Source: a bacterium (Candidatus Gribaldobacteria) CG10_big_fil_rev_8_21_14_0_10_41_12
GTDB lineage: Bacteria > Patescibacteriota > Minisyncoccia > Minisyncoccales > CG1-02-41-26
Direction: 5' to 3'
Assembly: GCA_002773545.1 (NCBI GenBank)
Contig: PFAV01000006.1
Location: forward strand, 1 to 11,384
Length of the DNA stretch: 11,384 nucleotides
The notes beneath the pieces are model-generated. The model did no database searches. It was not told where the DNA came from and was given only the letters and a program-made list of their open reading frames with translations. The position numbers and the translations under genes are program-made. Numbering within the stretch: the first letter of the stretch is position 1; each line of letters opens with the position of its first letter. Shown one piece after another: positions 1-11,384 of the stretch.

Positions 1-1492
1 ATTGAATAATCTTAATTTTCGCTAAAATAAAAACAACTAAAGCCGCATAAAAGATAAGCCAGGCCAAACCATTAATAAACATCTCTTTATTTTTACTGTT
101 CCTCCCAGTAACTATTTTAATTACTTGCGCAAAAGCCACCTGTAAATATCCAATAGCAAACGACAATCCCATAAATAAAAGCGTGTCTTCTATGGGGTCA
201 ATCATTTTTAATCTATATAAAAATGGAAATTTTTGCAAAGTTTGAGTGGTTGAGCCAAAATAACTGCCAAACAAAACACCCATTACCAAAGTAGAAATTC
301 CCCCATAAAAAAGCAACCTTAAAAGCTTGGTATCCCCAAGCTTTTTTCTCAAAAATATCAAGGGCAATAAAGTAAAAACAATCAACAAAATTCCATAGCC
401 AGCGTCTGTCAGACAAACCCCAAAAAATAGTATAAAGAAAAAGGCTAAATAAGGGGTTGGATCAACTTCGCCGGGCTTGGGCAGACCGAAAATTTCAGTT
501 ACATATTGAAAGGGTCTGATGAGCTTATGATTTTCTAAAATAACTCTTGGTTCCTCCCCTTTTTCCGGCACAATCTCTATTAAGTGGGATCCCTTGGCGG
601 ACAAAAAAACTCTTTCTTTTATTTTTTTTACTTCTTTTTCATATCCCCAAAAAACAATGTAGTCCAAAAGCCCCCCAAACAAAGTTTTGCTTTTTATCTC
701 CCAATTAATTTTTTCAACTTCCAAAACATCCCTATAAAGCTTAAAACTTCCAATCTTTTTTGCCATTAAAGAAAGTTCTTGTTTTAACGCCTCCATAACC
801 CTGCCGTTCTCTTTTGCTTTTGTTCGGAGATCGGCTCTTTCCTGAATGGGGCTCTGCTCAAAATTATAAAAAACAACCTCGCCTTTAATAACCTTAAGTC
901 CGGCCATCGTCTTGTCTTTATTTTCTTTAAGCCCGGCTAATAAATAAATTTCTTTGGCTCCCAAGCTGGTTAATGGCTTTTGAAATAATTTATTTTCTTT
1001 AATAAACAAGTCAAGCTTTGCTTGTTGTGTCTTAGCGATAGCAATAACCGAAAAAAAAGTTAGGTTGGTATCTTGGGGCAAAAAAGACAAGCCCTTAAAC
1101 TTCTCAAGTTCCAGAAAATTATTTTGGATATTCTTTTCTTCTTTATTAAGGATATCCAATTCTTTCTCTATTTTTTCTATTCTTTTGGCTTCTTGAAAAA
1201 CTTTTTCTTGGCCAGTATAATTTAAGGAAGCCGCACTAAACAAAATTTTGGAATCCTTAAATTTAGAAATAAAAGAAGGCTTTTTAATAAAAGGCGATAG
1301 ATAGCTAATAGCAAAGTCCATTGTGGCCAAGCGGTAATCCGCGGTTTGTAAATTTTTTAAGACATCTTCTTCTTTAGCTTCTCCTTGGGATTCAATTATT
1401 TCAAAAGATCCGGCCTCGGCAATGGCCTCAAATATCTTATTTTGGCTCTCCTTGGAGAAAGCCAAAATATATTTTTTGGCTACTTTAAGCAT
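1..1492 (-). CDS. ntpI: A/V-type ATPase subunit I (NtpI/AtpI, homologue of eukaryotic subunit a), 3' part missing
   Basis: I translated 1492 down to 1 by hand; the frame is open for 497 codons and leaves the window without a stop. Residues 1 to about 330 are a soluble, charged, partly coiled-coil arm. A hydrophobic membrane domain follows, opening with the family signature FGLPKPGEVDPTP near residues 335-347. Next come the first membrane helix with LTDAGYG (about 363-370, matching the conserved GDxGYG) and VLFGSYFGS near 405. Family members are usually 600-660 residues, so roughly 100-150 are missing to the left. Subunit I forms the stator half-channel for ions and links the peripheral stalks to the membrane ring of A/V-type rotary ATPases. 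Its ATG (1490-1492) overlaps the end of the upstream G/H-type gene by 13 nt, so the two are co-translated. Identification rests on motifs I can read; the ion it moves cannot be told from this part. Confidence 0.93.
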   Translation of the reverse strand, partial: MLKVAKKYILAFSKESQNKIFEAIAEAGSFEIIESQGEAKEEDVLKNLQTADYRLATMDFAISYLSPFIKKPSFISKFKDSKILFSAASLNYTGQEKVFQEAKRIEKIEKELDILNKEEKNIQNNFLELEKFKGLSFLPQDTNLTFFSVIAIAKTQQAKLDLFIKENKLFQKPLTSLGAKEIYLLAGLKENKDKTMAGLKVIKGEVVFYNFEQSPIQERADLRTKAKENGRVMEALKQELSLMAKKIGSFKLYRDVLEVEKINWEIKSKTLFGGLLDYIVFWGYEKEVKKIKERVFLSAKGSHLIEIVPEKGEEPRVILENHKLIRPFQYVTEIFGLPKPGEVDPTPYLAFFFILFFGVCLTDAGYGILLIVFTLLPLIFLRKKLGDTKLLRLLFYGGISTLVMGVLFGSYFGSTTQTLQKFPFLYRLKMIDPIEDTLLFMGLSFAIGYLQVAFAQVIKIVTGRNSKNKEMFINGLAWLIFYAALVVFILAKIKIIQ

Positions 1493-1788
1493 AAAATTCT
1501 TTCTGTTAAATAATCAACAGCTTTATTTAGCTTTTCTTTTCTAATAGCCAACATTAAAGAAAGCTCTTTTTGAGTTTTTTCTTGAAAGGCTTGTTCAATA
1601 GCTTTAAGCTTTTTTTCTTTAGCGCTTTTTATTTGCTCTTTTTCATTTGGCGTTAAAGAAACTTCTTCCAATTTTTTTTCTAACTGGCTTCTTTTTTCTT
1701 GCAAAAATAAATCAGCTTCTTGTTTAACAGCTTCAATTTTTTCTTTGATTTCCCGTTCTTTTTGCAAAACTAAAGATAATTCATTCAT
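1480..1788 (-). CDS. A/V-type ATPase peripheral-stalk subunit G/H (AhaH/NtpF-like coiled coil)
   Basis: This 102-residue protein is almost entirely charged helix (many K, E and Q) with no membrane segment, as expected for the small coiled-coil stalk subunit that pairs with subunit E in A/V-type ATPases. Sequence identity in such proteins is weak, so the call leans on length, composition and context. It lies directly before subunit I with a 13-nt overlap, and G-I is how the Thermus-type V-ATPase operon begins. Subunit E is normally about 180-200 residues, and F-type subunit b has an N-terminal membrane helix, so neither fits. The start at 1788 is the only reasonable ATG; it lies 15 nt after the carbonic-anhydrase-like stop, and no Shine-Dalgarno sequence is evident. 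An unrelated coiled-coil protein cannot be excluded on sequence alone. Confidence 0.78.
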   Translation of the reverse strand: MNELSLVLQKEREIKEKIEAVKQEADLFLQEKRSQLEKKLEEVSLTPNEKEQIKSAKEKKLKAIEQAFQEKTQKELSLMLAIRKEKLNKAVDYLTERILCLK

Positions 1789-1803
1789 ATTTTTGTTTTC
1801 TCA

Positions 1804-2211
1804 TTAAAAAATCTTTTCCAACGACAACTCCCCTTTTGATACGCCTTTGACGATATAAGCCGTAAAAATTAGTTCGGGGAATTGTTCAGCGATAATGGCT
1901 TTGATTTTAGCCAGGTCGGCTTGTTGAGTGGTTGTTTCCTCTATTGGGTCGACAATGCCGTAGGCGCCGCAGTTGTCGTGGTATAAAACAACGATATTTT
2001 TTATTTGGTGAAGTTTTTGCGATAAAGTAATTTGCTTTAATAAAAAATCTCTTTCAGCTTCAGAGCCAAGCATGTCCTTGGCCGAGCCCGCGCAAGAAAC
2101 CAAGTCATAGTCGCCCTCCTCCACGCCAATATCTTTTAGTAAACTGCTCAAAACACTGGGCTTAAGGCGAAAGTCCATACAACGAAAAACTAAATAATGA
2201 CAAATGTGCAT
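1804..2211 (-). CDS. Small beta-carbonic-anhydrase-like zinc protein
   Basis: The 135-residue protein carries the beta-carbonic anhydrase zinc pattern: CMDFR (C11, D13, R15) and HDNCGAYG (H78, C81), giving the Cys-His-Cys ligands and the Asp-Arg dyad. The segment SCAGSAKDM (39-47) falls where the family has its RNAGN-like loop. The family converts CO2 and water to bicarbonate and a proton in the cytoplasm. At 135 residues it is well below the usual 190-220, so it may be a minimal or diverged member, and activity is not assured. The start at 2211 is supported because the next ATG (M12) would remove the C11 ligand. It sits 14 nt after atpC and 15 nt before the A/V-type stalk gene, in the same apparent transcript. 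A role in proton or bicarbonate supply near the two ATPases is only an inference from position. Confidence 0.75.
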   Translation of the reverse strand: MHICHYLVFRCMDFRLKPSVLSSLLKDIGVEEGDYDLVSCAGSAKDMLGSEAERDFLLKQITLSQKLHQIKNIVVLYHDNCGAYGIVDPIEETTTQQADLAKIKAIIAEQFPELIFTAYIVKGVSKGELSLEKIF

Positions 2212-2225
2212 AAAATTATTAATTA

Positions 2226-2660
2226 TTAACTAGTCATTTGAAAAGGCGGGCTACCTTTATGCCGGCGGGCGACTTTTAGCCGAGCTAATTCTTTCTCTAT
2301 TTGTATAGCCAAGCCGGTGTAATCAACTTCTTCCCTGTTTTTCTCGCTCATTAATTTTAAGGCGCGGTCTTTGGCTTCTTTTGCTCTTTGCTCGTCAATT
2401 TCAGAGGCGTGCTCGGCCGTGTCGGCCAAAACAATCACTTTGTTTTTGGCCACTTCAATCATACCGCCCGAAACCGCCATAGCAATTTCTTCTTTGCCTT
2501 TTTTAATCATTAATTCGCCCGGCTTCAAAACGCCTACCAAAGAAATGTGGTTGGGCAAAATAGTTATTTCGCCTTGAACTGTAGGTATGGTCGCCTGGTC
2601 AATCTCGCTTTCATAAACAACCCTTTCTGGGGTGACAATTTTAAAGTTTATCTTGTTCAT
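2226..2660 (-). CDS. atpC: F-type ATP synthase epsilon subunit
   Basis: The 144-residue protein has the epsilon layout: an N-terminal beta-sandwich (about 1-85, beginning INFKIVTPERVVYESE and including GEITILPNHISLVGVL) and a C-terminal two-helix segment ending in ELARLKVARR. Epsilon belongs to the central stalk of F1, joins gamma to the c-ring and can inhibit ATP hydrolysis. The gene is last in the F-type cluster. It is separated from atpD by 66 nt made up largely of repeat sequence, so its start region lies next to a mobile-looking element. An AGAGG inside the repeat is about 14 nt before the ATG, rather far for a normal ribosome binding site. After the last expected helix there is an unusual tail of roughly 11 residues (HKGSPPFQMTS). 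Confidence 0.95.
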   Translation of the reverse strand: MNKINFKIVTPERVVYESEIDQATIPTVQGEITILPNHISLVGVLKPGELMIKKGKEEIAMAVSGGMIEVAKNKVIVLADTAEHASEIDEQRAKEAKDRALKLMSEKNREEVDYTGLAIQIEKELARLKVARRHKGSPPFQMTS

Positions 2661-2666
2661 AATAAT

Positions 2667-4139
<1,473 letters not shown>

Positions 4140-4148
4140 TTATGCTCA

Positions 4149-5054
4149 TTACTCTAACGACGCTTTGCTCACTGATATTTCAGATAGTTCTTGGGTAATG
4201 CCGGTTTGGCGCGCTTTATTAAAGCCCAAAGTTAAATCGCTCAACAGCCCGCCGGCCGCGTCCGAGGCGTTTCTCATGGCCAACATTCGTGAGGAGTGTT
4301 CGGAAGCGTTTGATTCTAAAACCGCCTGATAAATTTGTAATTCCAGCAACCGTGGTAAAAAAATTCGTAAAACAAAATCAGCGTTTGGCTCAAAAAGATA
4401 CTCTCCTCCATCAATTTGGTCTTGCTCTTCAATTTCTTTTAACAACTTTTTTTCATCTTCGCTGATGGCCGCTAAGTTTAAGGGCAGAAATTGTTTAATA
4501 ACTGGTTTTTGTTTTAAGGGGCTGATAAAATCAGTGAATACTAAAACAACTCGGTCATATTTTTGGACTAAAAACCCATTAAGCGCGGCTTGCGATAAAA
4601 ATCTCATCTCGCTTAAGTCGCTCAAGACCTCGCTTTTAGGAAAATCCGCCGCTACTAATAAACCGTTTTTAGATAAAGCCACCGCTCCCTTGCGGCCATA
4701 AGTGATAAATTCCAATTCGGCTGAGGGCGCTTGGGCGGCTACAAAAGACAAGGTTTTTTTAATAATTTGCTGGTTAAAGCCGCCGCAAAGTCCTCTATTG
4801 GAGCTTAATAATAAAATGCCGATTTTTTTGATTTCTTTTGATTGATTTAATAAGGGATGCAATGCCGGGTCGCTTTTTTGAGCTACCCTCAAAACCGCTT
4901 TCCAGGCGGTTTCGGAATATTCTCTAGAAAGCAAAGCCGAGGCAACGGCTTTTCTCATTTTGCTAGCTGAAACCATCTCCATGGCTTTGGTAATTTTTTG
5001 AGTGTTTTTAACAGAGCGAATCTGTCGTTTAATTTTACGAATTGCCAGTGCCAT
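4149..5054 (-). CDS. atpG: F-type ATP synthase gamma subunit
   Basis: The 301-residue protein has both conserved ends of gamma: the N-terminal helix IRKIKRQIRSVKNTQKITKA followed by MEMVSASKM, and a C-terminal helix with LTLGFNKARQTGITQELSEI. These two helices form the coiled coil that rotates inside the alpha3beta3 hexamer and couples ring rotation to catalysis. The length is close to the usual 285-300. The start at 5054 gives the standard MALAIRKIK beginning. A 10-bp perfect hairpin ends 7 nt before this ATG, with no visible Shine-Dalgarno sequence between, so translation may respond to that structure. The 68-nt gap after atpA is one of the largest inside this operon. Confidence 0.97.
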   Translation of the reverse strand: MALAIRKIKRQIRSVKNTQKITKAMEMVSASKMRKAVASALLSREYSETAWKAVLRVAQKSDPALHPLLNQSKEIKKIGILLLSSNRGLCGGFNQQIIKKTLSFVAAQAPSAELEFITYGRKGAVALSKNGLLVAADFPKSEVLSDLSEMRFLSQAALNGFLVQKYDRVVLVFTDFISPLKQKPVIKQFLPLNLAAISEDEKKLLKEIEEQDQIDGGEYLFEPNADFVLRIFLPRLLELQIYQAVLESNASEHSSRMLAMRNASDAAGGLLSDLTLGFNKARQTGITQELSEISVSKASLE

Positions 5055-5061
5055 AATTTTG

Positions 5062-5087
5062 CCCGATTTTGCGGAAACAAAATCGGG
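5062..5087 (-). promoter_or_regulatory. Perfect 10-bp hairpin directly before the atpG start
   Basis: CCCGATTTTG at 5062-5071 pairs exactly with CAAAATCGGG at 5078-5087 around a 6-nt loop. In the minus-strand transcript it ends 7 nt before the atpG ATG, where a ribosome would need to bind. It has no U-tract right after it, so it is not a convincing terminator. A role in translation, RNA processing or mRNA stability is inference. Confidence 0.6.
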
Positions 5088-5117
5088 AATTTCTAAATCC
5101 TAATTTCTAATTTCTAA
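5088..5117. repeat. Three copies of AATTTCTAA in the atpA-atpG gap
   Basis: The 9-mer AATTTCTAA occurs at 5088-5096, 5102-5110 and 5109-5117, the last two overlapping by two bases. It fills the rest of the gap between the atpA stop and the hairpin before atpG. No function can be assigned; short AT-rich tandem spacers may simply arise by slippage. Confidence 0.65.
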
Positions 5118-5122
5118 AAAAA

Positions 5123-6634
5123 TCAAGAAGAAAAAATACTCTTATACTCGCTAATCAAGTTTTTTAAGTCCTGTTCGGTTTGTTCGGTGATGTCTTTGGT
5201 TTCTTTAATTGATTGTAAAATAGTTTTGCCTTGGTTGTCTAAATACTGCAAAAGGCCTGTTTCAAAGTCCTTAATTTTGTTGATGGCAATGTCGTCCAGA
5301 AAACCGTTCACCGCGCTGAATAAAATGGCCACTTGGCGTTCTACTGGCATAGGGCGATACTGATCTTGTTTGAGAATTTCGGTCAGACGCCTGCCCCGCT
5401 CAATCTGCGCTTGGGTGGCTTTGTCCAAATCAGAGGCAAACTGCGCGAAAGCGGCTAACTCACGAAATTGCGCCAGCTCTAATCGCAACTTGCCCGCCAC
5501 TTTTTTCATAGCTTTAATTTGCGCGTCTGATCCCACCCGCGAGACCGACAACCCCACATTTAAGGCTGGCCTAATGCCTTGATAAAATAAATCTCCCTCC
5601 AAATAAATCTGCCCGTCAGTAATAGAAATAACATTGGTAGGAATATAAGCTGAAATATCGCCAGCTTGCGTTTCAATAATCGGCAAAGCGGTGATAGAGC
5701 CGCCTCCTTTTTCTTGGCTTATTTTGCAAGCCCGCTCTAATAACCGTGAGTGCAAATAAAAAATATCGCCGGGGTAGGCCTCTCGGCTAGGGGGACGGCG
5801 CAATAGCAATGATAGCTGGCGATAAGCCACCGCGTGCTTTGACAAGTCATCATAAACAATCAAAACATCTTTGCCCTGATCCTTAAAGTATTCAGCCATA
5901 GCGCAACCCGCGAAAGGCGCGATATAATTTAAGGCCGCCGGGTGAGACGCCGTGGCCGCCACCACTATGGTATGATCAAGCGCTCCCAGCTCGGTTAATT
6001 TAGCCACTGTTTTGGCTACGCTGGAATCTTTCTGGCCAATAGCCACATAAATACAAATAACATTTTGATCTTTTTGATTGATAATCGCGTCAATGGCCAA
6101 AGCGGTTTTGCCGGTTTGGCGGTCGCCGATAATCAATTCTCGCTGACCTCGGCCAATCGGGATAATCGCGTCAATGGCCTTAATGCCTGTTTGCAAAGAA
6201 ATTTTGACTGGCTCTCTCTCAATCACTCGGGGGGCAATTTTTTCCACTGGATAAAAGTTTTTATGGCTCAACGAGCCCTTTTCATCCAAAGGCGCTCCTA
6301 ACGGATTAACTACTCGGCCAATCAGCTCCTCGCCCACCGGCACCTCTAAAACTCGGCCGGTTGTTTTGACCATATCGCCTTCTTTAAGCTGGCGATAATC
6401 CCCCAAAATGATCACCCCGGCCAAGTCCTCTTCTAAATTCAAAACCACGCCAAAAATATCATTGGGGAAGGCCACCATTTCCAACGACATGGCCTGGCTC
6501 AAGCCATTCACCTTGGCCACGCCGTCGCCCAGCTCCACTACGAAGCCGACATTTTCCACTTGCGCTTGCGAGCGGTAGTCGCTTAACTGATTTTTGAGTG
6601 ATTCTATTAAATAATTTTTTAATTCATCGCTCAT
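5123..6634 (-). CDS. atpA: F-type ATP synthase alpha subunit
   Basis: The 503-residue protein matches the usual alpha length. It shows the P-loop GDRQTGKT (170-177), [14 protein letters not shown] (260-273), [12 protein letters not shown] (279-290), and the arginine-finger segment [13 protein letters not shown] (R366), which reaches into the catalytic site of the neighbouring beta subunit. The N-terminus, with the segment [14 protein letters not shown] at 29-42, is the standard crown domain. Alpha binds nucleotide without catalysis and alternates with beta in F1. The start at 6634 lies 3 nt after the atpH stop, so the two are tightly coupled. TGA is used as the stop codon. All key residues are present, so a working enzyme is expected. 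Confidence 0.98.
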
Positions 6635-6637
6635 AGT

Positions 6638-7036
6638 TTAAGAATTTAATTGATGATTAAGCCGTTTTAGTTCATTTTTAACCGAAGCGTCTAATAAAAA
6701 ATCTTGCCACTTCAAGATAAACCCGCCCAGCAAGCCCTTGTCAAGGCGCTCTTGCAAAATAACTTTTTCTTGGGACTTATCTGTCAAAAATTGCCGCAGT
6801 TTATTAGTAATTATTTTACTGGCCTGATGGGCTGTAAAAAGTTCAGCCCTTAATTGCCCATCTTGCTGGTCAAGATATTTTTCCAATTCAACGATAATCA
6901 AGGGCAATAAAAAAAGCGCGTTTTTCTTGAGCAATAACTTAAAAAACTTTTCCGTTATCCGCGCATGCTCTCCCTTGCCTGCTTTATTAGCTACATCGGC
7001 TAAAGCGATGGCGTATTTTTTAGGCGATATCTTCAT
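6638..7036 (-). CDS. atpH: F-type ATP synthase delta subunit (OSCP homologue), shortened
   Basis: The start at 7036 overlaps the atpF stop as ATGA, typical of coupled translation. The N-terminus (SPKKYAIALADVA, about 4-16) resembles the first helix of delta. The C-terminal part has LDKGLLGGFILKW (98-110) and LLDASVKNELKRL (114-126), matching the conserved GG and D-x-S region of the family. Delta/OSCP caps the alpha3beta3 head and ties it to the b-subunit stalk. At 132 residues it is about 45 short of the usual 175-180. Both ends are recognisable, so the loss is internal, probably in the N-terminal helical bundle or linker, not a frameshift. The position between atpF and atpA makes the assignment secure. 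Confidence 0.92.
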   Translation of the reverse strand: MKISPKKYAIALADVANKAGKGEHARITEKFFKLLLKKNALFLLPLIIVELEKYLDQQDGQLRAELFTAHQASKIITNKLRQFLTDKSQEKVILQERLDKGLLGGFILKWQDFLLDASVKNELKRLNHQLNS

Positions 7037-7527
7037 AACTCCTGTAAAATCTTTTGAGACAATTGTTCGTCTTTTTCTTGGTCTAATTTTTCCCGTAAAA
7101 TTTTCTCGGCCGCCAAAATTACCAGCCCGCTGATTTCGCCTTTTAATTCTTCTTTGGCTTTTTTTTGTTCTCTTTGTATTTGTTCTTGAGCTTGTTCTAA
7201 AATTTGTTGGGCTTGGGCGGCTGTTTTTTCGGTTAGAACAACTCTTTCTTTTTCAGCATCTTCCTTAACTTTTTGCATAATGGCTTGCGCCTCTTTTTTA
7301 GCCGTCACAAAAGCGTCTTGCCGTTCTTTTTCGCCTTCTTGCAATTGCTGGCCAATTTCCTCGGCTTGGCGCAAGCCGTCTTCAATGCGCACTGTTCTGT
7401 CTTGCATTTTCTTGGCTAATGGTTTTAAGGCAAAAAACCACAAAACAAAAACCACAATGGCAAAGTTAACCAACTGGGCGATTAAAATCTTCCAATCAAT
7501 ATGGAAGGAAGAAAGGATATCAATCAT
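7033..7527 (-). CDS. atpF: F-type ATP synthase b subunit
   Basis: The 164-residue protein starts with a short polar segment (SSFHIDWKILIAQL), then a single membrane helix (about 14-34), then a long charged, Q/E/K-rich helix running almost to the C-terminus. This is the b-subunit plan: a membrane anchor and a coiled-coil dimer forming the peripheral stalk. The N-terminal F-x-I-D-W-x-x-x-x-A-Q-L-x-N-F pattern is well conserved in the family and supports the start at 7527. It lies only 5 nt after atpE and overlaps atpH by 4 nt. There is one b gene and no b' copy, as in most non-photosynthetic bacteria. Confidence 0.96.
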   Translation of the reverse strand: MIDILSSFHIDWKILIAQLVNFAIVVFVLWFFALKPLAKKMQDRTVRIEDGLRQAEEIGQQLQEGEKERQDAFVTAKKEAQAIMQKVKEDAEKERVVLTEKTAAQAQQILEQAQEQIQREQKKAKEELKGEISGLVILAAEKILREKLDQEKDEQLSQKILQEL

Positions 7528-7532
7528 TTTTT

Positions 7533-7768
<236 letters not shown>

Positions 7769-7779
7769 AAGGACGCTTC

Positions 7780-7810
7780 TCAATTAAAATATAAAAATTA
7801 TTTTAATTGA
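7780..7810 (-). promoter_or_regulatory. AT-rich 11-bp hairpin between atpB and atpE
   Basis: TCAATTAAAAT at 7780-7790 pairs exactly with ATTTTAATTGA at 7800-7810 around a 9-nt loop. It lies in the 83-nt gap between the atpB stop and the atpE start, 25 nt before that start. Structures upstream of atpE are known in other bacteria to affect mRNA processing or translation. Here that role is inferred from position, and the stem is all A-T apart from one C-G pair. Confidence 0.5.
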
Positions 7811-7837
7811 TTATTCGGCCTTAAATAATTAAATAAT

Positions 7838-8683
7838 TTAATGCGCCTCGGCGTGATGCGAAGTCATTACAGACAAAAAAACTAATGTAAGCGTGGCAAA
7901 AATTAACGCTTGTATTATTCCTACAATAATCTCTAAAAAGATAAAAGGCAATGGCACCGCATAGGCAAAAATCGCCGCCATTGAAGCCAACAACACCTCG
8001 CCCGCAAAAACATTGCCAAATAATCGGAAGGAAAGCGAAGCCACCTTGGCTACCTCGCCCACCGCTTCAATTAACCCTACAAAAAACTGAATCGGATTAA
8101 TCAATAAGGTTGTATATTTTTTCTCTTGGAAAACTTTCCGCGGCAATTCTAAAAAAAACTTGAAGCCAGCAAAGCGATTTAAGTGGCTCCAAGCGCCCGA
8201 CATAACCACACCAAAGATATGCGTTAAAACCACTGCCATAATAGACAAGGCCAAGGTGGTGTTCAAATCAGCGGTGCCACCTCGCAGTAACGGTATAAAA
8301 AACCTTCCACCCTCGCGAGCCTCCACAAAGCCAATTGAGCCAAAGCCGGGCAACAAGCCCAGCCAATTATTAAATAAAATAAAAATAAACAAGGGTAAAA
8401 CAATCGGTAAAAACTTCATGGTTTTGCCTCGGCTGCCCGTGACGGTGTCCGCTAAATTGTAAGCGCCTTCTAAAAAAACCTCGCAATAATTCTGAAAACC
8501 CTTAGGAATCATGGCAATTTTGCGTCTGGCCATTAAAGAAAAGGCCGCCACCAAGAAAACCGCTAGCCAAGAACAAAGCAATGAATTAGTAATAGTAAAG
8601 CCGTGGAAATTAAAAAGCGGCTCGGCAAAGAGCGTGGTTTCGTGTTGAATTTCTTGGGTTAAATTAGTATCTGTTTGGTTCAT
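7838..8683 (-). CDS. atpB: F-type ATP synthase a subunit (proton channel)
   Basis: The 281-residue membrane protein has about five or six hydrophobic segments and the signature of subunit a: GGTADLNTTLALS (135-147), INPIQFFVGLIEAVGEVAK (195-213) and SLSFRLFGNVFAGE (216-229). R220 is the essential arginine facing the c-ring carboxylate, and Q258 is in the conserved GIIQALIFATLT helix. With the c-ring it forms the two half-channels for protons. The C-terminus ends in a histidine-containing tail (HHAEAH). The start at 8683 overlaps the preceding atpI/Z-like gene by 20 nt. A long N-terminal segment of about 25 polar residues precedes the first membrane helix, as is common for this subunit. Confidence 0.97.
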   Translation of the reverse strand: MNQTDTNLTQEIQHETTLFAEPLFNFHGFTITNSLLCSWLAVFLVAAFSLMARRKIAMIPKGFQNYCEVFLEGAYNLADTVTGSRGKTMKFLPIVLPLFIFILFNNWLGLLPGFGSIGFVEAREGGRFFIPLLRGGTADLNTTLALSIMAVVLTHIFGVVMSGAWSHLNRFAGFKFFLELPRKVFQEKKYTTLLINPIQFFVGLIEAVGEVAKVASLSFRLFGNVFAGEVLLASMAAIFAYAVPLPFIFLEIIVGIIQALIFATLTLVFLSVMTSHHAEAH

Positions 8684-9008
8684 TTGGGTTGTTATCGTCT
8701 AAACAATTAAAATAATCTCTTTGAACCTGTTGAGGGTCTTTTTTATTCTTTTCACTATTTTTTTTAGCATAAGTTATTTTCCATAAAAACAAAATTTCCC
8801 TAAAAATACCCATGATCGTCACGGCAAAACCCAACCCCATGCAAATAACAAAAGGCCAGCTTCCCCATTCAATAAAATATTTCTCCAAAAGCTTGCCCAA
8901 AAACAAAAACAAAACCAACGGGCCGATTAACCAGCCCCAGATCTTAAAAAAAACCTTAAGCCCAACCATTTGCCAATTGTTTTCCCCCTCGCCAAAATAA
9001 TCAGTCAT
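8664..9008 (-). CDS. AtpI/AtpZ-like small membrane protein heading the ATP synthase operon
   Basis: This 114-residue protein has two membrane helices (about 20-41 and 51-69), a short loop and a lysine-rich C-terminal tail. This is the plan of the ATPase_gene1/AtpZ family often found first in F-type operons, where members assist c-ring assembly or help with magnesium uptake in some species. The segment with GWLIGPLVLFLFLGKLLEKY and a second glycine-rich helix (MGLGFAVTIMGIFRE) fits. It is the first gene after the sigma-70 promoter at 9065-9093. The 5' leader to its ATG is about 50 nt, very AT-rich and without a Shine-Dalgarno sequence. Its 3' end overlaps atpB by 20 nt. The family call rests on layout and position more than on fixed residues. 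Confidence 0.75.
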   Translation of the reverse strand: MTDYFGEGENNWQMVGLKVFFKIWGWLIGPLVLFLFLGKLLEKYFIEWGSWPFVICMGLGFAVTIMGIFREILFLWKITYAKKNSEKNKKDPQQVQRDYFNCLDDNNPNEPNRY

Positions 9009-9064
9009 AAATAATAATTGAAAATTGAAAAAATAATAAAATAAATCTGTATGGGGGGGAAGTC

Positions 9065-9093
9065 ATTATAAGGCCACTAGCAACCCAAGTCAA
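9065..9093 (-). promoter_or_regulatory. Sigma-70 promoter of the ATP synthase operon
   Basis: On the minus strand TTGACT (9093-9088) is followed by exactly 17 nt and TATAAT (9070-9065). The -10 box is perfect and the -35 differs from consensus by one base. The predicted transcription start is near 9058, about 50 nt before the first gene. It lies immediately after the terminator-like palindrome of the preceding unit, so it is well placed to start the atp transcript. Confidence 0.85.
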
Positions 9094-9114
9094 GAGAGCG
9101 CACTTCACTCTAAA

Positions 9115-9156
9115 AGGGGTCAGCCCCCGCGCCTTTAGGCGCCGGGTCTGACCCCT
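9115..9156 (-). terminator. GC-rich palindrome, possible terminator of the leuS unit and REP-like repeat
   Basis: AGGGGTCAG (9115-9123) pairs perfectly with CTGACCCCT (9148-9156). Inside it CCC pairs with GGG and GCGCC with GGCGC around a small loop, with two mismatches. On the minus strand the stem runs into TTTT (9114-9111 side), 17 nt after the phosphatase stop, so it could terminate the leuS unit. Its core, GGGGTCAGACC-like, resembles the GGGGCAGACC core of the repeat at 2667-2763, suggesting a REP-type family. Both roles may hold. Confidence 0.65.
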
Positions 9157-9172
9157 GTCAACTTCTTACTTC

Positions 9173-9733
9173 TTATTTGAAAGCGACGCGAAAAAGCCGC
9201 CGTGGAAAATAATAAACAGCCAAACCAATGAAAATACCTATGCCCATACCAGCCGAAACATCAGAAAACCAATGCAATCCGCAAAAAACCCGAGCCAAGC
9301 TCATAACAACGCTGGCTAATAAAAACCAGAAGCCGACTTTTTTATTATAAAGAAAAACAATGGTTGATAAAGCGAAAAAAATACTAGCGTGCGTGGAAGG
9401 ATAAGCCGGCGAAGCGGCGTGCGAGACAATTAGTTGAGCATCGCCCAGCACAAAGGGTCGGGGCCTATTCCACAAAAAACCAATTGCGCCGGCTATAAAA
9501 AATCCCCAAAAACCAGCCAAGAACCCTTCAAAAAGCATCAGCCAGCGAAAGGGCAGGCCAGCCCGCGAGCTCAAACTATCGCGCACATTTTTTAAGCCAA
9601 GAATAATAAAAACAATCACTAAAATAAAAGGCAAATAATTAGCCAAAAAAATACCTAAAAAATCCAGCCAAGAATAATGAAGAACAAAACTATTAATAGA
9701 AGCGGTTAACCAAATGTCCGCGAACATATTCAT
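9173..9733 (-). CDS. PAP2-family membrane phosphatase, probably undecaprenyl-diphosphatase (BcrC-like)
   Basis: The 186-residue protein has about five or six membrane helices and the three PAP2 motifs: RPRPF (90-94), YPSTH (111-115, H115) and ARVFCGLHWFSD (147-158; R148, H154, D158). H154 is the expected nucleophile. The lysine that normally starts motif 1 (Kx6RP) is glycine here (G84); BcrC-type undecaprenyl-diphosphate phosphatases also tend to lack it, which favours that role. Such enzymes recycle the lipid carrier for cell-wall and surface glycan synthesis. It starts 1 nt after the nucleotidyltransferase stop; M3 (9727) is an alternative start. Pairing with a sugar-nucleotide gene fits envelope glycan work. 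Other lipid-phosphate phosphatases of the superfamily remain possible. Confidence 0.85.
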   Translation of the reverse strand: MNMFADIWLTASINSFVLHYSWLDFLGIFLANYLPFILVIVFIILGLKNVRDSLSSRAGLPFRWLMLFEGFLAGFWGFFIAGAIGFLWNRPRPFVLGDAQLIVSHAASPAYPSTHASIFFALSTIVFLYNKKVGFWFLLASVVMSLARVFCGLHWFSDVSAGMGIGIFIGLAVYYFPRRLFRVAFK

Positions 9734-9734
9734 T

Positions 9735-10481
9735 TTACTGCTTAGTTGTTTTGCCGCTCTTATTCAAGCGCAAAAAGTTCCCTACCTTGCGAATGTCCCC
9801 GGGGCAGCCAAAATCCAGCCAATAATCCTCTATCATTTTCAACTTTACCTTGCCGTCTTTCGCCAAATGAGTAATGGCGTCGGTAAGCTCATATTCGCCT
9901 CTGGGCGACAAGCCTACGCAAGGAATCTTGTCAAAAATATCCGGCGTGAATTTATAAAGGCCGGTATTAACCAAATTGCCAATGTATTCTTTGGGCTTTT
10001 CTTTTATTTCAATCAAAAATCCATTTTTGTCAGTGATTAAAACACCGTATTTCTCTGGATGCTCCTTTTCCACTTTGGCTGCCATATAATTATGATTGTC
10101 ATCAATGTTTATCGCCTTTAAGTCTCTTACCGAATAAAGATTATCGCCATAGACAGCTAAAAAATTTTCTTTGCCAACCAAATCGCGAACGCACTTAATC
10201 GGACATAGCGTGCCATATTCTTTTTCTTTGGGGCCTAAAATATCAAACTGATTAACAACAGTGGCTTTATAACCAAAGTCCTTCAAAAATTTTTCCATCA
10301 AATCAGCGCGATAGCCAACCACCAAAATAAAATCCTTGTATCCGGCCGCTAAAAGATTGTCAAACAAATAAGCCAAAAACGGCTTATGCTTTACATTAAT
10401 TAGAAGCTTGGACTTATTTTTACTTAAATGCTTCATTCTCGTGCCATGACCCGCCGCCGCGATTACTACTTTTTTTATCAT
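9735..10481 (-). CDS. Sugar-phosphate nucleotidyltransferase (NTP_transferase family)
   Basis: The 248-residue protein has the family fold throughout: the nucleotide loop AAAGHGTRM (8-16) with K25 in the following segment, YGDNLY (111-116) with the metal aspartate D113, EIKEKP (158-163), VNTGLYKF (171-178), and DYWLDFGCPGDI (219-230) with a second metal ligand D223. These enzymes join a sugar-1-phosphate to an NTP, making a UDP-, dTDP- or GDP-sugar. The substrate cannot be read from the sequence; glucose-1-phosphate or mannose-1-phosphate are likely candidates. There is no C-terminal left-handed beta-helix, so it is not a full GlmU. Its ATG overlaps the leuS stop (ATGA). With the PAP2 phosphatase downstream it suggests surface polysaccharide or glycolipid synthesis. 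Confidence 0.9.
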   Translation of the reverse strand: MIKKVVIAAAGHGTRMKHLSKNKSKLLINVKHKPFLAYLFDNLLAAGYKDFILVVGYRADLMEKFLKDFGYKATVVNQFDILGPKEKEYGTLCPIKCVRDLVGKENFLAVYGDNLYSVRDLKAINIDDNHNYMAAKVEKEHPEKYGVLITDKNGFLIEIKEKPKEYIGNLVNTGLYKFTPDIFDKIPCVGLSPRGEYELTDAITHLAKDGKVKLKMIEDYWLDFGCPGDIRKVGNFLRLNKSGKTTKQ

Positions 10482-11384
10482 ATGACAAAATTTATTAGTT
10501 TATTTTTTACAAAAATTGTTTTTTTGATTTCTTTATTTGCCAACCATTTAGAAATTTTTTGATCTTTCTTAACCAGCCCAACCGCTTCTTGCTCGGCCAT
10601 GTCTCTAACAACTTCAAGACCTCCTCTGGCTTTGCCGTTTATCTGAATAATCAAGTTTATTTTCTCGTCGTTAATTAAATTTATATCATATTTTGGCCAT
10701 TTTTCCAAGAAGATGCTTTCGCTATGGCCAAGCCCTTGCCATAATTCTTCAGCCAAGTGCGGGGCAAAGGGCGCTAAAATCAACAAAAACTTTTCCATAA
10801 TATCTCCAGCGATTTCTTTTTCTTTTTCCATCTCGTTAACTAAAATCATCAAGGCGGAGATGGCGGTATTAAACTTCATCGCCTCAATATCCTCTGAAAC
10901 TTTCTTAATTGTCTTGTGTAATAATTTTTCCATGCTCGCGCAGCCGTCACCCTGAGGCGTTAGCCGAAGGGTCTCATTCTTTTGAGATCCTTCGCCTGCT
11001 GGCTCAGGATGACAACTTGCTGTTGTCATTTTTAATTTTAATCGCCATACTCTCTCCAAAAATTTCTTAGAGCCTCCCAGCGATTTCGTGTCCCAAGCAA
11101 TGGCTTGATCAAACGGCCCCATAAACATTTCATAAACTCTTAAAGCGTCAGCGCCATATTGCTTGACCACTTCATCGGGATTTATGACATTGCCCTTGGA
11201 CTTGGACATTTTTTCGCCGCCCTCGCCCAAAATCATACCATGAGAAGTGCGTTTTTTATAGGGCTCGGGGCCTAAATCCTTAGGTACTTCGCCAATATCC
11301 CATAAAAACTTATAAATAAACCGCGAATAAAGCAAGTGCAAAGTGGTGTGCTCCATACCGCCATTATACCAATCAACTGGCATA
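10478..11384 (-). CDS. leuS: Leucyl-tRNA synthetase, 3' part, with an in-frame palindromic insert
   Basis: The 302 or so codons in the window are the C-terminal third of leucyl-tRNA synthetase; the gene continues beyond the right edge, and the ATG at 11383 is internal. Visible are DWYNGGMEHTTLHLLYSRF near the start, the catalytic KMSKS loop (58-62 of the visible part), INPDEVVKQYGADALR, and the anticodon-binding domain (KFNTAISALM, ILAPFAPHLAEELWQ). The C-terminal domain (LIIQINGKARG) closes it. Between RVWRLKL and LHKTIKKV, residues about 119-150 (CHPEPAGEGSQ, LRLTPQGDG and neighbours) are encoded by a palindromic repeat and look unlike the enzyme. This loop varies in length in the family, which may explain why the insert is tolerated. 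It heads the unit with the nucleotidyltransferase and the phosphatase. Confidence 0.96.
   Translation of the reverse strand, partial: MPVDWYNGGMEHTTLHLLYSRFIYKFLWDIGEVPKDLGPEPYKKRTSHGMILGEGGEKMSKSKGNVINPDEVVKQYGADALRVYEMFMGPFDQAIAWDTKSLGGSKKFLERVWRLKLKMTTASCHPEPAGEGSQKNETLRLTPQGDGCASMEKLLHKTIKKVSEDIEAMKFNTAISALMILVNEMEKEKEIAGDIMEKFLLILAPFAPHLAEELWQGLGHSESIFLEKWPKYDINLINDEKINLIIQINGKARGGLEVVRDMAEQEAVGLVKKDQKISKWLANKEIKKTIFVKNKLINFVI
10946..11013. repeat. Palindromic repeat inserted in frame inside leuS
   Basis: The outer arms GTCACCCTGAG (10946-10956) and CTCAGGATGAC (11003-11013) pair at 10 of 11 positions. The inner arms CGAAGGGTCTCA (10965-10976) and TGAGATCCTTCG (10983-10994) pair at 11 of 12 positions around a 6-nt loop. 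The GTCATCCTGAG / GAAGGATCT pattern is a repeat seen in many unrelated bacterial genomes and resembles coding palindromic elements such as those of Rickettsia. It keeps the leuS frame open, so it is translated. Confidence 0.85.

Follow-up and report, generated by a model that had tools for sequence, protein, structure and literature searches.

A predicted Na+-type A/V-ATPase operon lies behind a predicted H+-type F-ATPase operon in a Gribaldobacteria-like bacterium

The way in which one ATP synthase comes to be replaced by another of different structure is an open question. Whole ATPase operons have been exchanged in place in archaea, and the accessible text of that study leaves the mechanism to speculation about virus-mediated recombination (PMC6863869). 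The locus described here raises the question in a bacterium. It is an 11,384-base stretch of DNA (the window), the entire contig C63 of G000, a Gribaldobacteria-like metagenome-assembled genome (MAG) of the Patescibacteria, or candidate phyla radiation (CPR; 714 kb, 75 contigs, 84.6% complete). The placement in Patescibacteria follows the labels of CA and V-D proteins from its relatives, Candidatus Gribaldobacteria and Pacebacteria. On its minus strand a complete F-type ATPase operon (F), a gene resembling carbonic anhydrase (CA) and the first genes of an A/V-type ATPase operon (V) follow one another; the rest of V lies on contig C58 (12,033 bases). We consider it probable that a V operon of predicted Na+ type, exchanged horizontally, lies between a vertically inherited F-CA unit of predicted H+ type and the genes that follow CA in sister species, and that transcription continues from one into the other. 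We compared the locus with G001 and G002 of the same genus (g1), with G012, G018 and G022 of genus g11 in the same family (f1, 24 genomes), and with an order-wide set of 247 genomes, G000 included.

Results

Two complete rotary ATPases at one locus

A preliminary description of the window had read two different rotary ATPases encoded back to back, and open reading frames (ORFs), Pfam and NCBIfam agree with it. Genes were named from ORFs and Pfam, with alpha and beta named by NCBIfam. The features, from high to low coordinates, are:

9105..9165, minus strand, hairpin with T-run upstream of the promoter-like site (-37.5 kcal/mol, z -6.8)
9065..9093, minus strand, promoter-like TTGACT-17-TATAAT, 56 nt before the atpI start (11 of 12 matches)
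8664..9008, minus strand, AtpI-like protein (114 aa), leading the operon; 35-81% identical to the ORF at this position in four relatives
7838..8683, minus strand, F subunit a (PF00119, E 2.3e-38)
7533..7754, minus strand, F subunit c (PF00137; ion site Glu59)
7033..7527, minus strand, F subunit b (PF00430, E 4.6e-26)
6638..7036, minus strand, F subunit delta, 132 aa (PF00213, E 2.5e-20)
5123..6634, minus strand, F subunit alpha (TIGR00962, 807 bits, cut-off 484)
4149..5054, minus strand, F subunit gamma (PF00231, E 3.6e-79)
2727..4127, minus strand, F subunit beta (TIGR01039, 786 bits, cut-off 463)
2226..2660, minus strand, F subunit epsilon (PF02823, PF00401)
1804..2211, minus strand, CA, putative carbonic anhydrase Pro_CA_2 (PF20393, E 3.7e-11; C-x-D-x-R and H-x-x-C motifs)
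1789..1872, minus strand, junction (end of CA plus the 15-nt gap); DNA match to G002 from 1873 upwards and to G012 from 1799 downwards
1480..1788, minus strand, A/V peripheral stalk subunit G/H (V-G); 56-64% identical to the ORF at the corresponding position in the V operons of G012 and G022
2..1492, minus strand, A/V subunit I, first 497 residues (PF01496, V_ATPase_I, E 1.7e-9), cut by the contig end

The F operon runs downwards from 9008 as AtpI-like, a, c, b, delta, alpha, gamma, beta and epsilon, so that all eight structural subunits of an F-type ATP synthase are encoded, as the preliminary description had it. This subunit order is the usual bacterial one. The AtpI-like protein, which has no Pfam or NCBIfam match, is named from its position only. 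An N-ATPase was considered and rejected: that type needs the order beta-epsilon-X-X-a-c-b-alpha-gamma with delta absent or fused to b, and the order here is I-a-c-b-delta-alpha-gamma-beta-epsilon. The same description had F run straight into V-G and subunit I with gaps of about 15 nt; gaps of this size are there (14 nt between epsilon and CA, 15 nt between CA and V-G), but it had not listed the CA gene that sits between F epsilon and V-G.

V-G, which overlaps subunit I by 13 nt, and V subunit E have no Pfam match (V-G no NCBIfam match either) and were named from position and identity to relatives. On the minus strand of C58 the C-terminal 49 residues of subunit I are followed by K, E, C, F, A, B and D, the genes that the preliminary description had proposed to look for. 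All nine A/V subunits (A, B, C, D, E, F, G/H, I, K) are thus encoded, in the gene order G-I-K-E-C-F-A-B-D. The pieces of subunit I on the two contigs do not overlap, and by the full-length G012 protein 94 residues lie between them. Ratios of nonsynonymous to synonymous substitution rates (dN/dS) range over 0.04-0.26 across all nine V genes and over 0.06-0.13 across CA and eight genes of the F operon, alpha excluded; they are rough, with dS near or above 1. By these measures both the F and the V set are intact and under purifying selection.

The V operon has a different history from the F operon

Identity of F alpha, beta and gamma to G000 falls from 90.8% in G002 through 76.3% in G001 and 65.8% in G017 to 64.0% in G018 of genus g11. 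The neighbouring TopA behaves likewise, with 91% in G002, 80-82% in G001 (two pieces) and 66-68% in three g11 genomes; for G017 a 191-residue piece is available, at 79%. For V subunits A, B and D, the closest relatives are instead the g11 genomes G012 (90.5%) and G022 (88.3%, partial), ahead of the same-genus G001 (77.5%, partial) and G017 (76.0%), and the V operons of G001 and G017 are sisters at 82.2% identity. The V tree places G000 beside g11 and G001 beside G017, both at 100% support, in conflict with the F and TopA relationships, and an approximately unbiased (AU) test rejects a clade of the G000 and G001 V operons (p 5e-10). On this sequence evidence F is vertically inherited and follows the species, V does not, and the V operon has moved horizontally between this genus and another in the family. 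Support for the branching among the V operons of G000, G012 and G022 is only 60, and the transfer may have gone either way.

V occupies a slot between genes that are neighbours in sister species

The order in the genus, seen in G001 (L006; extra genes after PAP2) and G002 (L009, L008), is a class I tRNA synthetase, a nucleoside triphosphate (NTP) transferase, PAP2, the F operon and CA, followed on the opposite strand by a nucleotidyltransferase (NTase)-like gene, RelA and TopA. The synthetase was called leucyl by eye, and the NTase-like gene, which has no Pfam match, was likewise named by eye. G000 carries the part from the tRNA synthetase through CA on C63, followed by V-G and I, and the end of V on C58, followed by HIT, NTase-like, RelA and TopA. 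The slot between CA and the NTase-like gene measures 68 bases in G001, holds two large genes in G002 (one with a Peptidase_S74 domain) and holds the V operon in G000.

The DNA itself is a mosaic. Window positions 1873-10929 match same-genus G002 at 80-82% identity, and positions 29-1799 match G012, from genus g11, at 73.5%. C58 divides in the same way: six pieces within 135-5143 match G002 (82-88%), 5638-12033 matches G012 (80-82%), and the intervening stretch with HIT matched neither. No repeats at the junction were taken as an insertion mark; a terminator-like inverted repeat follows V-D.

Expression of F and V is likely to be linked

The promoter-like site at 9065..9093 is likely the promoter of the unit, although promoter-like sites number 26 in the window against 21.8 in shuffled sequence, so that a single site is weak evidence alone. 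The hairpin and T-run just upstream of it is likely the terminator of the preceding tRNA synthetase, NTP transferase and PAP2 genes. Downstream of the CA stop, a terminator hairpin with T-run is found in G001 (-18.6 kcal/mol, z -2.7), G002 (-18.3, z -3.9), G017 (-29.3, z -7.0) and G021 (-21.9, z -5.4). G000 has none there (-7.5 kcal/mol, z -0.8), and V-G starts 15 nt on; the next strong hairpin comes after V-D (-37.5 kcal/mol, z -5.8). As neither sequence nor folding places a terminator between F-CA and V, read-through from the F promoter into V is likely, and the linked expression of F and V proposed in the preliminary description is likely with it. We infer a single unit of some 16 kb that begins at the atpI promoter and ends with the hairpin after V-D.

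F and V are predicted to carry different ions

In the Enterococcus hirae K subunit, the Na+ ligands are Leu61 (backbone), Thr64, Gln65, Gln110 and Glu139, with Tyr68 supporting (PMC2359735). The K protein here has Leu60, Thr63, Gln64, Gln115, Glu144 and Tyr67 in these places, and the Thr, Gln, Gln and Glu ligands are present in 15 of 15 aligned K proteins (V loci from 19 genomes were examined, and in four of these the available stretch contained no K). The F c subunit retains Glu59, with Ile26 and Ala60 where Na+-type c subunits have Gln or Glu and Ser or Thr (ligand residues from PMC2359735). Since K carries the E. hirae Na+ ligands and c does not, we predict that F uses H+ and V uses Na+. 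The E. hirae enzyme can also make ATP (PMC12018189), so the motif alone does not tell in which direction F or V runs.

A carbonic-anhydrase-like gene accompanies the predicted proton enzyme

CA also directly follows epsilon in G001, G002, G011, G017, G018 and G021. Across a 34-row alignment the D, R, H and second C of its two motifs are invariant and the first C is present in at least 90%; we take the C-x-D-x-R and H-x-x-C residues to be the metal and dyad residues of beta-carbonic anhydrases. A structure model of CA is confident (predicted local distance difference test, pLDDT, 96.4; predicted template modelling score, pTM, 0.90). A sequence search of solved structures returned weak matches only, the best to a mycobacterial beta-carbonic anhydrase (E 0.067).

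Within family f1, Pro_CA_2 is present in all seven genomes with the main F type (G000 and the six just named) and in neither of two with a divergent F (G006, G007), none of four with V only (G008, G010, G012, G022) and none of 11 without a PF00006 match; the line between main and divergent F was drawn after inspection of the tree. By this distribution CA tracks the predicted proton enzyme, not the predicted sodium enzyme, within f1. Across the order, 77 of 247 genomes have Pro_CA_2, and in at least 27 of the 77 the distance to F alpha or beta is no more than about 6 kb; in 22 of these 27 the gene is downstream on the same strand. One might speculate that a carbonic anhydrase beside a proton pump buffers or supplies H+. 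Among the papers found by search, none gives such a link in its title or abstract opening. Pro_CA_2 genes near F operons were seen at window 1804-2211 and at L006, L008, L010, L011, L110 and L113.

Two types are common, their adjacency is rare

The preliminary description had called it unusual to carry both types, in one apparent transcript, in a genome that looks reduced. Possession of both types is not in itself rare: F plus A occurs within one genome in 890 genera according to ProAD (PMC11738941), so the presence of both was set aside as the surprise. The same resource lists an H+-ATPase together with an Na+-ATPase in 1,137 of 1,388 genera having several ATPases (PMC11738941). Among 33 CPR bacteria, 20 have F, 10 lack a canonical complex and three have A/V instead of F (PMC10656485).

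At least seven genomes of the order set carry F and V (G000, G001, G017, G029, G163, G164, G173). The operons adjoin in two of the seven, G000 as F-CA-V and G017 as V-F-CA; in the other five they lie on different contigs. This survey went by match counts, with re-examination of 11 of the genomes that had three or more matches; those with one or two matches were not sorted singly. Among 383 sampled genomes of the class, scored for at most seven candidates each, the 32 others with at least three matches were re-examined and none has F beside V by contig position and frame length. A sample of 380 genomes of the phylum, searched by subunit C (which a divergent V may escape), gave 28 others for re-examination, none with adjacent operons, although both types occur in some, such as G698 and G736. 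Nor did V genes appear within up to 10 kb on either side of the 80 best F-gamma loci of named genomes. A search of related genomes for the same junction, as the preliminary description had suggested, returned none in the genus: no V is seen in G002, and in G001 F and V sit on different contigs. A conserved tandem of the genus was rejected on this account, and a tandem common in the phylum was rejected on the surveys, in which only G000 and G017 have the operons adjacent. Among the papers found by search, from which most subscription journals are absent, no title or abstract opening reports adjacent F and V operons. The arrangement of these two known machines is real and rare.

Sister species carry F or V in comparable places

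Elsewhere in the family one type stands where a relative has the other. In G022, V follows a RarA/MgsA-type gene and a P-type ATPase gene, and so it does in G012, with one extra gene between these two; in G011 it is F that follows the same two genes, and in G018, of the same genus as G012, F-CA lies in the same neighbourhood between an ATP-binding cassette (ABC) transporter gene and RarA. By gene order, then, sister species carry F or V in comparable places. The P-type cation ATPase gene (L096, L097, L112) immediately precedes V in G012 and G022 but F in G011; the G012 copy is named by similarity.

In the database protein P0076, AtpI residues 1-57 (86% identity to the window) continue, through a Cys-Met that both parts share, into CA residues 11-56 (68%), which is the product expected if everything from atpI to CA were deleted. 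P0076 occurs on two contigs, the longest of 5,065 bases, from the source labelled lgn, and the V-G protein P0098 occurs on one contig of 5,065 bases from the same source. If P0076 and P0098 shared one contig, a genome with F deleted and V kept would exist; the evidence for this is circumstantial. By rough reckoning the match in length could be due to chance with a very small probability, some equal lengths being expected; a 1,052-base length common to the CA protein P0023 and the V-D protein P0111 was taken as chance. No F remnants were found by tblastn (E 0.01) in eight V loci and G000 C58. Among the matches listed for the 247 order genomes no further AtpI::CA fusion is as clear, and a weak 31% match in G230 spans both parts. 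No V-G was found in viral contigs.

Further observations at related loci

The F delta of the window is short, spanning only positions 55-172 of the Pfam OSCP model, and the delta frames of relatives are similarly long. In G021 two ORFs and a stretch of N lie between F beta and epsilon (L011 3999-4726). The F loci of G163, G029 and G164 and the second of G026 (L120, L121, L124, L125) have upstream of alpha a long ORF of about 260-290 aa that shows weak similarity to c at its C-terminal end; that of L121, which alone was tested, has no Pfam match. The gene directly after F epsilon in G007 (L111 5344-6306, minus strand) resembles a Na+/Ca2+ exchanger, by eye only. An intein-like stretch that contains a LAGLIDADG domain (PF14528) interrupts V-ATPase subunit A of G001 (L007 2233-4518, minus strand) at its P-loop; the Intein_splicing match falls below the cut-off.

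Discussion

The locus is probably the result of an insertion in which a complete A/V operon of predicted Na+ type came to lie behind CA, the last gene of the F operon. Transcription from the F promoter would then run through CA into V, and a single unit of about 16 kb would make both enzymes, F translocating H+ and V translocating Na+. While both are kept, one enzyme would balance the proton gradient against ATP and the other would expel Na+, which appears the most likely use; a division of labour between F and V is plausible and compatible with the data. Were the F part later deleted, the F promoter would drive V, which offers a route to replacement of the ATPase.

Several points weigh against this reading. 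The evidence is assembled sequence; V extends over two contigs, between which some 280 nt of subunit I are unseen; and the F-CA-V junction of G000 recurs in no other genome searched. A hairpin after CA is also absent in G011 (z 1.9) and G018 (z -0.7), where other genes come next, so its absence is not peculiar to G000. The V operons of G000 and G012 share only about 80% DNA identity, with dS near or above 1, and are too far apart to point to a donor, a direction or a date. Finally, a search for Na+/H+ exchangers, limited among antiporter families to PF00999, found none in six genomes (13 of 14 controls were positive), so that the gradients of H+ and Na+ lack their obvious link. The insertion rests on the DNA mosaic and the trees and stands despite the weaker hairpin count.

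What the tandem represents is less certain. We tentatively propose that it could be an intermediate in ATP-synthase replacement, in which V is captured and driven by the F promoter and F is later excised, with P0076 as the AtpI::CA scar, P0098 as its neighbour, and a switch from H+ to Na+ at the same locus. The slot after CA could alternatively be a neutral hot spot, at which foreign DNA enters between F-CA and the convergent NTase-RelA-TopA genes, with V coming to lie beside F by chance. The changing contents of that slot in G001, G002 and G000 are what such a site would produce; against it stand the second F/V adjacency in the family, at another locus and in the other order (G017), and the alternation of F and V in the separate neighbourhood of G011, G012, G018 and G022, and we regard a hot spot as possible but doubtful.

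Selection for linkage itself, with co-expression of an H+ synthase and a Na+ pump in fixed ratio being useful, would fit the different predicted ions, the intact and constrained gene sets and the adjacency of F and V in G017 too, in opposite order. Yet of the seven genomes of the order in which both types were seen only two have them side by side, the V-to-F gap of G017 holds a promoter-like TTGAAT-16-TATAAT, so co-transcription need not be common to both, G002 manages without V, and the PF00999 exchanger is missing from the genomes searched; such an adaptation seems unlikely. An ancestral tandem, present in the ancestor of the family and reduced in different lineages by loss of either operon, would account for the P-type ATPase gene before F in G011 and before V in G012 and G022, as well as for the two genomes that keep the operons adjacent, but it is improbable given V groupings that contradict F and TopA and given that gene order and neighbourhood differ between G000 and G017. 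An assembly or binning chimera, including a join at 1788-2660, is very unlikely: the MAG is in 75 contigs with a break inside V subunit I, and outside G000 the V-G and V-D clusters (90% identity) occur on one contig each (1,029 and 1,052 bases) and the CA cluster on 15 (longest 22,516 bases), which may mean that close strains lack V or that V assembles badly, but each end of V is joined, on a separate contig, to genus-g1 genes that neighbour one another in G001 and G002, so two independent joins at one syntenic place would be required.

If the tandem is a replacement intermediate, its lack of a terminator and the candidate deletion scar in a relative suggest a concrete order of events for the exchange: insert behind, read through, delete in front. 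The locus also provides, in a very small genome, two rotary ATPases of predicted H+ and Na+ specificity that occur together naturally and are probably made from one message.

Each part of the locus resembles a known system. The F operon is like other F-type H+ ATP synthase operons in having all eight structural subunits with an AtpI-like gene leading, and differs in its short delta, the Pro_CA_2 gene after epsilon and the V operon after that. V shares with the Na+ V-ATPase of E. hirae (NtpK, PDB 2BL2) a two-hairpin K with the published Na+ ligands; here it sits after an F operon, and its ion use is predicted from the motif. An H+-ATPase and an Na+-ATPase in one genome, with H+ for F and Na+ for V, is the usual pairing in ProAD, whose accessible text reports co-occurrence in genomes and describes no F and A operons joined in one unit (PMC11738941). 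A further parallel comes from Thaumarchaeota, where, in the accessible text, whole ATPase operons were transferred, types were exchanged between conserved neighbours and some genomes have both (PMC6863869). Operons are exchanged in comparable places there as in the family of G000, but the types are A and V rather than F and A/V, and the second operon has its own unique neighbours, whereas in G000 it is joined to the first.

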